Virus record (IMG/VR): IMGVR_UViG_3300043496_000060
Span: 1-32,407 of that record
DNA from: a virus
Strand: one strand, 5' to 3'
DNA length: 32,407 nt
Below the pieces are notes generated by a model. It searched no databases. It saw only the letters and a list, made by a program, of their open reading frames with translations, and was not told the origin of the DNA. The position numbers and the translations under genes were made by a program. Shown here piece after piece: positions 1 to 3,507 of this stretch (the stretch's first letter is position 1; each line of letters starts with the position of its first letter).

Positions 1-1
1 C

Positions 2-43
2 GACGACTGCGCGCACGCCGTCATGCTCGGCGAGCTGCGCTAG
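2..43 (+). CDS. C-terminal end of an upstream gene (partial)
   Basis: The window opens inside a reading frame that gives 13 residues (DDCAHAVMLGELR) and then a TAG stop at 41-43. It could be the tail of a rightward gene cut by the window edge. The fragment is too short to assign to any family, and it could be a chance open frame. The only support is that the frame is open from the first complete codon and that the following 100 bases carry no other gene start. Confidence 0.25.
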   Translation, partial: DDCAHAVMLGELR

Positions 44-141
44 ACGCAGCCCCTGTGTGGAGGGGCGAGCCCGCAAGGGCTCCGAGGGTCGGCGGGTAGG
101 GGTACCTCGGCCGGCCCTCGTTGTTGTGTCAGACTGCCGGG

Positions 142-270
142 ATGTTCAAGCCCGTCTACCGGCGACCTCCGGCGCCCATCGCTGCCCTGATCCTGTTGCT
201 CGCTCTGCTGTGGTGGGCGGGCCTGATCGGCGCCGCGACATGGGCGATCCGCACCTGCGGCCTCGACTAG
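142..270 (+). CDS. small single-span membrane protein (42 aa)
   Basis: The frame starts at ATG 142 and encodes 42 residues: a basic N-terminus with KPVYRRPP, a hydrophobic stretch at about residues 13-35 rich in Leu, Ala and Trp (it includes LILLLALLWW), and a short polar tail. This reads as one membrane helix with the N-terminus probably inside. The Shine-Dalgarno signal is weak. Its TAG stop (268-270) interlocks with the TAG stop of the leftward small terminase gene in the tetranucleotide CTAG at 267-270, so the two genes end tail to tail with no space. The function is unknown. Small phage membrane proteins of this sort can be holin-related or superinfection factors, but nothing here decides that. 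Confidence 0.45.
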   Translation: MFKPVYRRPPAPIAALILLLALLWWAGLIGAATWAIRTCGLD

Positions 271-779
271 AGCGACTCGGCAGTCCGCAGCGCCTCGTCG
301 CGCAGGTCGCCGACCTCGATCAATACGCGCTCGATGTAGCGGTCGAGCAGCTCGCGGCCCAGCTCCGGCGCGATGTCGAGGCGAGCGAGGAAGCGCTCGA
401 TGTGAGCGGCCGGCGCCGCCGCCAGTGCTGCCAGAAAATACTCGGCTTCATAGGCGCCCATCTTGAGCGCCTCGACGCGGTCGACGTAGCGCCCGGCCTC
501 GGCATCATAGCGGTGCTTGGCGAGCCGGAGCTTGGCAGCTGCGGCGGCGATCTTCGCCGAGGTATTGCGCCGGCTCTCGGCCTCGGCCTTCTCGCCGTCG
601 ACCTCGCGCACCTTGCGCAGCCGACCCCACGTCGCATCGGCCTGCTCGGGATCGACCCGGCCTTCGGCGTCCAGGACGATCAGGCGCTTCTCGACGGCAC
701 GGATGATCGTGCTATGGCTCACGCCGCGGGCCTTGGCGTAGCCTCGCAGGCTCATCAGTTCCTTCACCTCGTCGGCCAT
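267..779 (-). CDS. terS: terminase small subunit, Nu1-like (170 aa)
   Basis: The small terminase recognises phage DNA and delivers it to the large subunit for cutting and packaging. Residues 9-50 form a DNA-binding winged-helix/HTH segment: MSLRGYAKARGVSHSTIIRA, then a short wing and VDPEQADATW. This is the usual N-terminus of lambda Nu1-like small terminases. Residues 60-100 are Ala/Lys/Arg-rich and helical, and residues 105-170 are a helical C-terminal part. The length is close to Nu1 (181 aa). The orientation is unusual: it is transcribed away from terL. Its ATG (779-777) overlaps the terL ATG within CATG, and its stop overlaps the upstream gene's stop within CTAG. A weak Shine-Dalgarno (AGGGTAGGT) lies about 8 bases before its ATG, inside the terL coding strand. 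The family call rests on motif and position next to terL. Confidence 0.75.
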   Translation of the reverse strand: MADEVKELMSLRGYAKARGVSHSTIIRAVEKRLIVLDAEGRVDPEQADATWGRLRKVREVDGEKAEAESRRNTSAKIAAAAAKLRLAKHRYDAEAGRYVDRVEALKMGAYEAEYFLAALAAAPAAHIERFLARLDIAPELGRELLDRYIERVLIEVGDLRDEALRTAESL

Positions 780-2787
780 GGCTGACCTACCCTATTGGTT
801 TCTCGATACCGTCCAGCCGGAAAACTCGGTGCCGCTCTCCGAGTGGTCCGACGCGAATCGTGTTCTGACCACGCGCAGCGCCGCCGAGCCCGGCCCCTAC
901 TCTACCGCGCGCACGCCGTACCTCCGAGCCATCATGGATGATCTCTCGGTCGGCTCTCCGATCCTGCGCGTCGTGTTCAAGAAGTGCGCGCAGATCGGCG
1001 CCAGCGAGGTCGGCAACTGTTGGATCGGCTACCTCGTCGATCAGGCGCCCGGTCCCATCCTGATGGTCCAGCCTACGGTCGAGCTGGCGAAGCGCTACTC
1101 GAAGCAGCGCATCGACGCGCTGTTCGACGAGTCAGAGCTGATGCGCTCGAAGGTGCGGACCGCGCGCAGCCGCGACAGCGGCAACACCATCCTGCTCAAG
1201 GAATTCGAGGGCGGCCTGCTGATCATGACCGGCGCCAACTCGGCGGTCGGCCTGCGCTCGATGCCGGTCCGTTATCTGTTCCTCGACGAGATCGACGCCT
1301 ACCCCGGCGATGTCGAGGCCGAGGGCGATCCGGTTGCGCTCGCCGAGGCCCGCGCGCGGACCTTCTCGTTCCGCTCCAAGAAGTTCCTGGCCTCGACGCC
1401 GGGGCTCAAAAATATGTCGCGCATCAGCCGCGAGTATGAGCGCAGCGACCAGCGCAAGTATTTCGTCCCCTGTCCGCTCTGCGCCGTCATGCAGACACTC
1501 GAGTTCCCGCGCCTGCGCTGGCAGCCCGGCAAGCCGGCGACCGTCCAGTATCAGTGCAGCTCCTGCGAAGGGACGTTCGGCGAGCATCACAAGACCGACA
1601 TGCTGGCCGCTGGCGAGTGGCGATCGACCGCGGAGTCGCTCGACGCGCTGGCGCATGGCTATCACCTCAACGGGCTCTACTCGCCTGTGGGCTGGCTCGG
1701 ATGGGCCGACATCGCCAAGCAGTGGGAGGACGCTGTAAACGATGCCGACGCGCGCAAGACCTTTATCAATACCGTGCTCGGCGAGGAGTGGGAGGAGGAG
1801 GCGGCCGAAGTGCCTGACTGGCAACGCCTCTATGAACGGCGCGAGGAGTGGCCGCTCCACACCGTCCCCGAGCGCGGCCTGTTCCTGACCGCGGGCTCCG
1901 ACGTGCAGGCCGATCGCATCGAGGTCGACATCTGGGCGTGGGGTCGCGGTCTCGAATCCTGGCTGGTCGAGCATATCGTGCTCCCCGGGGATCCTGGTCG
2001 CACCGAGGTATGGGCGCAGATGACGGAGCTGCTCGGCCGGACGTGGGAGCACTCGACCGGCAACCGCATGGCGCTGCAGCGGCTCGCGGTCGATACCGGG
2101 TTCTCGACGCAATCGGTCTATGCGTGGGCGCGCGGACAGGACAAGGCGACGGTGCTGCCGGTGCGCGGTGTCGGAATCTATGACCGCGTCGTCCCTGTCG
2201 TCGGGCCCACCCCGGTCGAGGTCATGGCGAACGGCAAGAAGGTCAAGCGCGGCGTGAAAATCTGGACGGTCAGCGTCTCGTATTTCAAAAAAGAACTCTA
2301 CAAGCACCTGGGTCTCGACAAGCTCACCGACGAGCAGCTCGCGCAGGGCTACACATTCCCGGCCGGCTTCGTCCATCTCAACGACTCGACGAGCGACGAG
2401 TGGATCAAGCAGCTGGTCGCCGAGCAACAGGTCATCGTCCGCTCGAAGCACGGTTTCAATGCACGGACCGAGTGGCGCCAGCTCCGGCCGCGCAACGAGG
2501 CGCTCGATGCCCGGGTCTATGCCCGGGCTGCCGTCTGGCTGGCCGGCGCTGACCGCTGGCCGGATAGCCGCTGGCGCGCCCTGGAGGAGCAGCTAGGCCT
2601 CGGCGAGATGCCGGCCCGTAACCCCCCGCCGGCTACCTCGACGGCGCCCACCGGGGCAATGGCGCCCCCTGCGCCGGCCCCTGCCGCGCCTGTCGCCTTG
2701 CCCCCGGCTGCCTCGGCCGGCAACATCCGCGCCCGCCCGAACCTCCCGGGCGGCCGGCGGCGGCGTGTCGCCTACTGGCAGGGCTGA
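778..2787 (+). CDS. terL: terminase large subunit, lambda gpA-like ATPase/nuclease (669 aa)
   Basis: This is the packaging motor subunit, which cuts concatemeric DNA and pumps it through the portal using ATP. The N-terminal part (LSEWSDANR, then AAEPGPYSTARTPYLRAIMD, residues 20-54) is typical of GpA-family terminases. A degenerate Walker A region lies at about 68-78 (FKKCAQIGASE) and Walker B at 166-172 (YLFLDEI). Four cysteines (C232, C235, C260, C263) form a probable zinc finger between the ATPase and nuclease halves. GSDVQADRIEVDIWAWGRG at about residue 372 opens the nuclease domain. The last 60 residues are Pro/Ala-rich and end in a basic tail. Length fits the family (about 640-670). ATG 778 is the only possible start after an in-frame stop at 739-741, yet no Shine-Dalgarno sequence precedes it. 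Assignment is firm. Confidence 0.95.
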   Translation: MADLPYWFLDTVQPENSVPLSEWSDANRVLTTRSAAEPGPYSTARTPYLRAIMDDLSVGSPILRVVFKKCAQIGASEVGNCWIGYLVDQAPGPILMVQPTVELAKRYSKQRIDALFDESELMRSKVRTARSRDSGNTILLKEFEGGLLIMTGANSAVGLRSMPVRYLFLDEIDAYPGDVEAEGDPVALAEARARTFSFRSKKFLASTPGLKNMSRISREYERSDQRKYFVPCPLCAVMQTLEFPRLRWQPGKPATVQYQCSSCEGTFGEHHKTDMLAAGEWRSTAESLDALAHGYHLNGLYSPVGWLGWADIAKQWEDAVNDADARKTFINTVLGEEWEEEAAEVPDWQRLYERREEWPLHTVPERGLFLTAGSDVQADRIEVDIWAWGRGLESWLVEHIVLPGDPGRTEVWAQMTELLGRTWEHSTGNRMALQRLAVDTGFSTQSVYAWARGQDKATVLPVRGVGIYDRVVPVVGPTPVEVMANGKKVKRGVKIWTVSVSYFKKELYKHLGLDKLTDEQLAQGYTFPAGFVHLNDSTSDEWIKQLVAEQQVIVRSKHGFNARTEWRQLRPRNEALDARVYARAAVWLAGADRWPDSRWRALEEQLGLGEMPARNPPPATSTAPTGAMAPPAPAPAAPVALPPAASAGNIRARPNLPGGRRRRVAYWQG

Positions 2788-2788
2788 C

Positions 2789-2956
2789 ATGCTGACCAAG
2801 ACCGAGAGCGCCAAGCTGCTGCAGCTGATCAACGCCTACGTCGCCGCGGTCGTCGGCGTGCTCGCTACTGCTGACAGCACGCGGCGCGTCGCCGGAGTAG
2901 ACTCGGCCTCGCAGGCGCTGGAGCGCCTGCTCGAATACGTGGAGGAGATCAGCTGA
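2789..2956 (+). CDS. small helical protein, unknown function (55 aa)
   Basis: The gene starts at ATG 2789, one base after the terL stop, so it is probably translated by coupling to terL. An in-frame start at 2765 inside terL is less likely. The product is short, mostly helical and moderately acidic (it begins MLTKTESAKLLQLINAYVAA and ends in LEYVEEIS), with no cysteine, signal or clear membrane span. It sits in the position where many lambda-like phages place gpW, but it lacks the gpW pattern, and a better gpW candidate lies at 5459. Its TGA stop overlaps the probable CTG start of the next gene. Function not recognised. Confidence 0.6.
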   Translation: MLTKTESAKLLQLINAYVAAVVGVLATADSTRRVAGVDSASQALERLLEYVEEIS

Positions 2957-3507
2957 CTTACCGCCATCTCATGCTCGACCTGGAGACCTGGGGCACTCGA
3001 CCCGGCTGTGCGATCCGCAGCATCGGCGCCGTGTTCTTCGACTTCGATCAGCCGCTCGGCCCGAGCTACTACGCCAACGTCGACGATGAGTCGTGCATCG
3101 CGCTCGGCCTCTCGGTCGACCCTGTCGTGGTCGCGTGGTGGGGCGAGCAGTCGCCCGAGGCGAAGACCGCCCTCGATACCGACCGCATGCCGATCGCCGA
3201 CGCGCTCGCCGGCTTCCTCGGCTTCTTCGAGCGGAGCGAGGAGCCGGGCGAGGTCTGCGTGTGGAGCCACGGCGCGACGTTCGACATCCCGATCACCGAC
3301 TACGCAATGCACGAGGCCGGCCTGCGCACGCCCTGGAAGTTCCAGAACAACCGCGACACCCGCACCCTGATCTGGCTGGCCGGCGATCTCGGCATCACGT
3401 GGGAGCCGGAGCGCATCGGCGTACGCCATCATGCCCTCGACGATGCCAAGACGCGCGCGCTACAGATGATGGAGCTACGCAGGAGGGTGATCACCCTGCA
3501 CGCCTGA
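2953..3507 (+). CDS. DEDDh-type 3'-5' exonuclease (Rv2179c-like / phage exonuclease)
   Basis: The fold is RNase H-like with the DEDDh catalytic set: motif I DLET (D9, E11 counted from the CTG start), motif II WSHGATFDIPITDYA, and motif III HHALDDAKTRA. This matches the Rv2179c-like 3'-5' exonucleases common in phages, which degrade RNA or single-stranded nucleic acid. The first ATG is at 2971, but starting there removes most of the first beta strand (YRHLML) before the catalytic DLET. A strong Shine-Dalgarno, GGAGGA at 2941-2946, is spaced six bases from CTG at 2953, which overlaps the upstream TGA as CTGA. CTG is therefore the likelier start, although 2971 remains possible. The enzyme's role here is not known: nucleotide salvage, host RNA attack or replication support are all open. 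Confidence 0.85.
   Translation: MTYRHLMLDLETWGTRPGCAIRSIGAVFFDFDQPLGPSYYANVDDESCIALGLSVDPVVVAWWGEQSPEAKTALDTDRMPIADALAGFLGFFERSEEPGEVCVWSHGATFDIPITDYAMHEAGLRTPWKFQNNRDTRTLIWLAGDLGITWEPERIGVRHHALDDAKTRALQMMELRRRVITLHA

Follow-up and report, generated by a model that had tools for sequence, protein, structure and literature searches.

A small terminase gene inverted head to head with the large terminase gene in one clade of uncultivated phages

Few features of tailed-phage genomes are as constant as the co-transcription of terS and terL, the genes for the small and large terminase subunits, and the stoichiometry of the small to the large subunit has long been in question in studies of DNA packaging. 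In nearly all tailed phages the two genes sit side by side on the same strand, an exception being Yersinia phage PY100, where terS and terL are found on opposite strands and far apart, as ORF2 and ORF18 (PMC3488191). Opposed, overlapping transcription has been described in phages, as in the case of the ith-1/tha-1 non-contiguous operon of S. aureus phage 80alpha (PMC11087260), and has been reviewed (PMC7154746). On inverted, divergent or fused terS and terL, the open-access literature yielded the remark on PY100 alone, and no published case of adjacent head-to-head terS and terL genes, or of a fused terS-terL gene, was found there.

The locus described here lies in viral record IMGVR_UViG_3300043496_000060, all 32,407 bases of which were analysed and are referred to as the window. 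The phage is contractile-tailed and has a lambda-type head module, with the portal, maturation protease, major head protein, tail sheath and baseplate genes running rightward throughout. Bases 3-42 encode the end of a gene that has an intact homologue in a related locus (L005:3260-3493; related loci are given L numbers), so the record begins within a gene and is a fragment. Judged by TerL, the closest isolated phages are Rhodobacter phages, at 54% identity, and the best TerL among 84,980 species genomes, searched for a host or prophage, is 60% identical. Shortly 3' of terL, within the packaging and head region, the window encodes a 3'-5' exoribonuclease (2971-3507, plus strand; Rv2179c-like, Pfam E 2e-39).

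Coding frame and identity of the leftward gene

The large subunit gene, terL, occupies positions 778-2787 of the plus strand and encodes a protein of 669 aa that matches Pfam GpA_ATPase (E 3e-87), GpA_nuclease (E 2e-84) and phrog_15 (E 1.9e-223). Next to it, on the minus strand, the putative terS (267-779) encodes a protein of 170 aa. The inversion of terS relative to terL, as given in the preliminary description, was confirmed, and the leftward coding frame is backed by the pattern of substitution between the window and L005. In this comparison the minus-strand frame has a pS of 0.48 and a pN of 0.13, indicative of purifying selection, whereas a plus-strand ORF across terS (3-785, 260 aa) has a pS of 0.16 and a pN of 0.24 and was rejected as coding sequence. 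Since substitutions are biased to third positions in the minus frame, with the reverse in the plus-strand ORF, terS is real and leftward. No second TerS, and thus no rival small terminase on the rightward strand, was found in the window record or in relatives of 53.7 kb and 46.5 kb.

The profile search agrees with the earlier assignment of the leftward product as a terminase subunit, in that residues 5-166 match phrog_57 (small terminase) with E 7.7e-9, or E 7.4e-11 in a genome-wide search. An AF2 model (pLDDT 88) has a winged helix-turn-helix (HTH) at residues 7-55, followed by a long helix and a helical C-terminal domain. The winged HTH superimposes on 7lwr_A, an entry titled viral DNA-packaging motor, with a Z of 6.8 and an rmsd of 1.8 over 49 residues, a fit that, with Z < 8, is supportive only. 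Three traits of the TerS family are present, namely a phrog_57 match over most of the protein, a predicted N-terminal winged HTH with a helical domain, and adjacency to terL, but in inverted order.

Of the label 'Nu1-like small terminase' used in the preliminary description, the second part stands, given the phrog_57 match and the homologues found just upstream of terL in 203 forward loci. The first part does not, since the Pfam Phage_Nu1 model gave no match (sub-threshold matches were to HTH_50 and DUF4315, at up to E 1); the name TerS is thus supported, and membership of the Nu1 family is not. That the leftward protein is instead an HTH regulator unrelated to terminase is highly improbable, and this reading is already mostly refuted. 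It would suit the lack of a terminase match in Pfam and NCBIfam, where neither TerS nor its paralogue X (see below) receives a name over the cut-off, and the likeness of the winged HTH to MerR and excisionase folds as well, but it would not explain why the phrog_57 match spans nearly the full length, why the 203 forward loci carry homologues at the terS position, why the annotated TerS proteins of Rhodobacter phages give weak matches to the window TerS, or why X is fused to TerL in related phages. A sequence search of the PDB for relatives returned none.

Distribution of the inverted order and the shared start site

The orientation of terS was counted with one curated TerS profile on upstream ORFs only, as an iterated profile run on all ORFs drifted to composition-like matches. 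Among 253 loci with a related terL, terS was inverted in 27, forward in 203 and without a TerS match in 23, where the 27 inverted records include many duplicates and amount to approximately 13 distinct sequences. A further 97 loci yielded 12 inverted records, with the same sequences as before, 76 forward loci and 9 without TerS. In every more distant relative with a recognised terS (203 loci) the gene is forward, as it is in all reference-genome relatives of TerL with a detectable TerS. The inverted loci group in the TerL tree with seven loci of open terS state, as one clade (support 100/100) that is sister to the forward loci, and TerS identity among the inverted loci falls to approximately 25%. 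The search of related phages for the inverted order thus found it in about 13 distinct sequences, which are part of one TerL clade. Comparison of these sequences shows the inverted terS cassette to be a genuine and evolutionarily kept feature of one clade of uncultivated phages, rather than an artefact or a one-off.

The two start codons of the window overlap in the sequence CATG (777-780), with the terL ATG at 778-780 and the terS ATG at 779-777, as had been described. The CATG supplies the sole possible start for both genes, there being no in-frame ATG, GTG or TTG upstream. This interlock is kept in 11 of the approximately 13 distinct inverted sequences (the window, L004, L005, L006, L007, L008, L010, the L012 group, L016, L023 and L170). 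An exact CATG is missing from L019, where a GTG and an ATG start abut, and from L020, where the starts of terS and terL are some 10 bases apart. The CATG is fixed even where the lengths of the N-termini vary, as evidenced by the longer TerL N-terminus of L023 and L170 and the shorter TerS of L170.

At the other end of terS, the preliminary description had reported a second interlock, in which the terS stop codon shares CTAG (267-270) with the stop codon of the upstream gene. The overlap is present, with an ORF of 42 aa (142-270, plus strand) that is convergent with terS and encodes a hydrophobic stretch, but it is not conserved. The ORF has a weak coding score and no family, and falls inside a segment of approximately 225 bases (43-267) that is missing in L005, where the CTAG at the terS stop is used by another plus-strand gene. 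In most relatives, a further leftward gene follows terS in place of a CTAG partner. The stop overlap is a by-product of the palindrome, as a terS ending in C followed by TAG automatically gives a TAG on the opposite strand, and the CTAG interlock was rejected as a conserved feature.

The translation signals of the two genes are unequal. Upstream of the terS start is a purine-rich Shine-Dalgarno (SD)-like stretch, 5'-ccaatagggtaggtcagcc-ATG (781-799, minus strand), that lies inside terL codons 2-7 and has a duplex energy of -6.9 in the window. Relative to other windows antisense to terL, the site is stronger on average over 10 loci (Fisher p 2e-4), as it is when these are thinned to six lineages (p 9e-4). 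It is strongest in L007 (GAGGGAGG), where the amino acids of TerL differ. In the inverted clade the N-terminus of TerL reads MAx[ILVF]PxF in place of the 'FDGAE..RAWRDG'-like sequence of forward relatives, and the corresponding codons, read antisense, form the GG-rich SD-like stretch ahead of terS. By contrast, the terL leader (757-777, plus strand), which is antisense to terS codons 1-7, has no SD; its duplex energy is 0 in the window, and none better than -3.8 was found before terL in 10 CATG loci. The lack of an SD before terL, noted from the window in the preliminary description, therefore holds for all CATG loci tested, in each of which the terS SD-like site is present, and it sets terL apart from most other genes of the window phage.

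Most likely, translation of terS uses a leadered leftward mRNA that would start within terL, and translation of terL begins without an SD. A leaderless terL mRNA, with its 5' end at or beside the ATG, would be compatible with start codons this crowded and with the absence of an SD from all CATG loci tested, but non-SD initiation on a leadered mRNA would serve equally well, and promoter sequences at the required position are wanting: by eye, no -10-like hexamer 6-12 nucleotides upstream of terL is consistent across the clade, and window 1-3000 contains no promoter-like site. A leaderless message is accordingly disfavoured, and we regard it as quite improbable.

Paralogue X and the origin of the head-to-head order

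In nine loci (L006, L008, L010, L012, L016, L019, L020, L023 and L170), a separate leftward gene, X, lies directly downstream of the inverted terS. In profile searches X, a helical domain of approximately 100 aa, aligns with the C-terminal half of phrog_57 (for example at E 3e-13 to 3e-12 in the L012 group), and the N-terminal parts of TerL in L021 and L025 align there too; X is therefore a TerS paralogue that lacks the winged HTH. For instance, the X of L012 (3173-3502, minus strand) has a predicted three-helix fold with a pLDDT of 74. In L010, L012 and L016, the start of X overlaps the terS stop. No X was found in the window, L004, L005, L009 or L011, which are fragments whose whole genomes may differ; in the lineage of the window, terS has no neighbouring X. 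In the case of L007, a gene fragment directly 3' of terS (1-361, minus strand) matches threonine dehydratase (phrog_7093, E 1.4e-8).

Two kinds of fusion are found among the relatives. In L021, L025, L341 and L342, terS is forward and is followed by an ORF in which X leads in frame into the N-terminus of TerL (L021:3671-4701, plus strand; L025:1784 onward). In L017 and L018, a TerS-like C-domain, an X-like domain and TerL make up one plus-strand ORF of 885-904 aa (L017:1654-4308, running off the contig; L018:65-2779), and no TerS gene with a winged HTH was seen beside this triple fusion. Both loci nest inside the inverted clade, as a grouping of the inverted loci without them was rejected (AU p 0.0135), and the tree therefore calls for either two separate inversions or a single re-inversion accompanied by fusion.

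The head-to-head order is well explained, from the order of genes in these loci, as the product of a cassette inversion. The ancestor would have carried terS, X and terL in that order and all rightward, with X fused to TerL later, or already, in the sister loci. A single segment of terS and X would then have flipped, giving leftward X and leftward terS ahead of rightward terL, as in the inverted loci. The simplest course is an inversion with its ends in two CATG start sites, each a palindrome, which would leave both ATGs in one CATG. Because CATG is its own reverse complement, an inversion between the CATG at the terS start and that at the terL start would directly yield the interlock. Thereafter, a mutation in the common A or T would strike both starts, and the interlock would be frozen.

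Transcription across the junction and comparison with known systems

Under such an arrangement, terS and terL would have no same-sense mRNA in common. terS would be read from a leftward RNA beginning inside terL, its SD-like site being terL codons 2-7, and the RNA for terL would run rightward, start within terS or on the far side of it, and offer no SD. Should both messages have leaders, their 5' ends would be complementary, and the subunits would be made from separate, probably mutually antagonistic transcripts in place of a coupled operon. On balance, we think it probable that terS and X were flipped as a unit between CATG sites, that the interlock was frozen, and that the terS and terL transcripts are separately controlled and probably antagonistic. 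Mutual interference of the two transcripts is a possible means of setting the ratio of TerS to TerL. It would go further to regard the junction as a working switch, in which the complementary 5' ends make the synthesis of TerS and TerL mutually exclusive in time, together with a two-part small terminase consisting of a DNA-binding TerS and a headless X, the latter fused to TerL in the sister loci and all three joined in one polypeptide in L017 and L018; this fuller reading is unlikely.

Scans of window 1-3000 found no sigma70-like promoter and one terminator-like site, which is at chance level, and a synonymous-site test across the inverted clade detected neither a conserved promoter nor any constraint on synonymous codons there or elsewhere around the terS/terL junction. 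A junction with no such constraint, and with no conserved motif except CATG and the SD-like site, is also what would be left by a frozen accident, that is, by one inversion that was kept by the common start bases alone, with two ordinary promoters and no regulatory role, since the A and T each serve both starts, which accounts for conservation without function. An accident of this kind is a serious possibility, though short of probable, as the interlock has stayed while the N-terminal lengths of both proteins varied (L023, L170), and the cassette is back in forward order in L017 and L018 and so was not irrevocably trapped. Inside terL, the sole DNA-level signal found is a run of codons (212-232, at 1411-1473) with unusually strong synonymous conservation in the inverted clade (z 4.9, where the 95%-of-maximum threshold is 3.8). 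This run is not seen in 15 forward loci and is possibly a binding site or regulatory element.

The genes left of terS in the window and L005 are rightward and meet it at the common CTAG, with no terminator found between them, so that read-through is allowed. With no room for a terminator at the CTAG, and with precedents in phages (PMC11087260, PMC7154746), these two loci would suit a non-contiguous operon, in which a rightward late RNA passes through antisense terS into terL, a leftward RNA provides TerS, and the two silence each other. This reading is rather unlikely, and read-through cannot be the rule across the clade: the left-hand genes of L008 are all leftward, and in the L012 group a strong intrinsic terminator with an 8-bp GC stem and a T8 tail (L012:3067-3086, plus strand) separates the rightward genes from the leftward X/terS pair. 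In these loci, a terL promoter is called for inside terS or X, in keeping with the separate transcripts favoured here.

The clade with terminase genes on opposite strands, set beside relatives in which terS is forward or TerS-like domains are fused to TerL, represents a natural comparison for the importance of coupling and of subunit ratio. It also bears on annotation, as the rule of looking for a same-strand gene upstream of terL misses TerS in such phages.

In the gene order of the window and L005, as in non-contiguous operons and excludons, an opposite-strand gene sits between rightward ones, and overlapping transcripts are predicted; however, it is the 5' ends of divergent genes that would overlap here, and L008 and L012 contradict read-through. 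With PY100, the locus has in common that the subunit genes are on opposite strands, which are widely separated there but adjacent, head to head and with common start bases here. The lambda-type modules of Rhodobacter phages RcKemmy and RcOceanus and of Wolbachia phage WO, where terS precedes terL on one strand, share with the locus the same TerL family, a TerS with a winged HTH and a phrog_57 C-terminal domain, and the adjacency of the two genes. Relative to these modules, terS is inverted, the two starts are interlocked, the N-terminus of TerL is replaced, and there is no co-translation from terS to terL.
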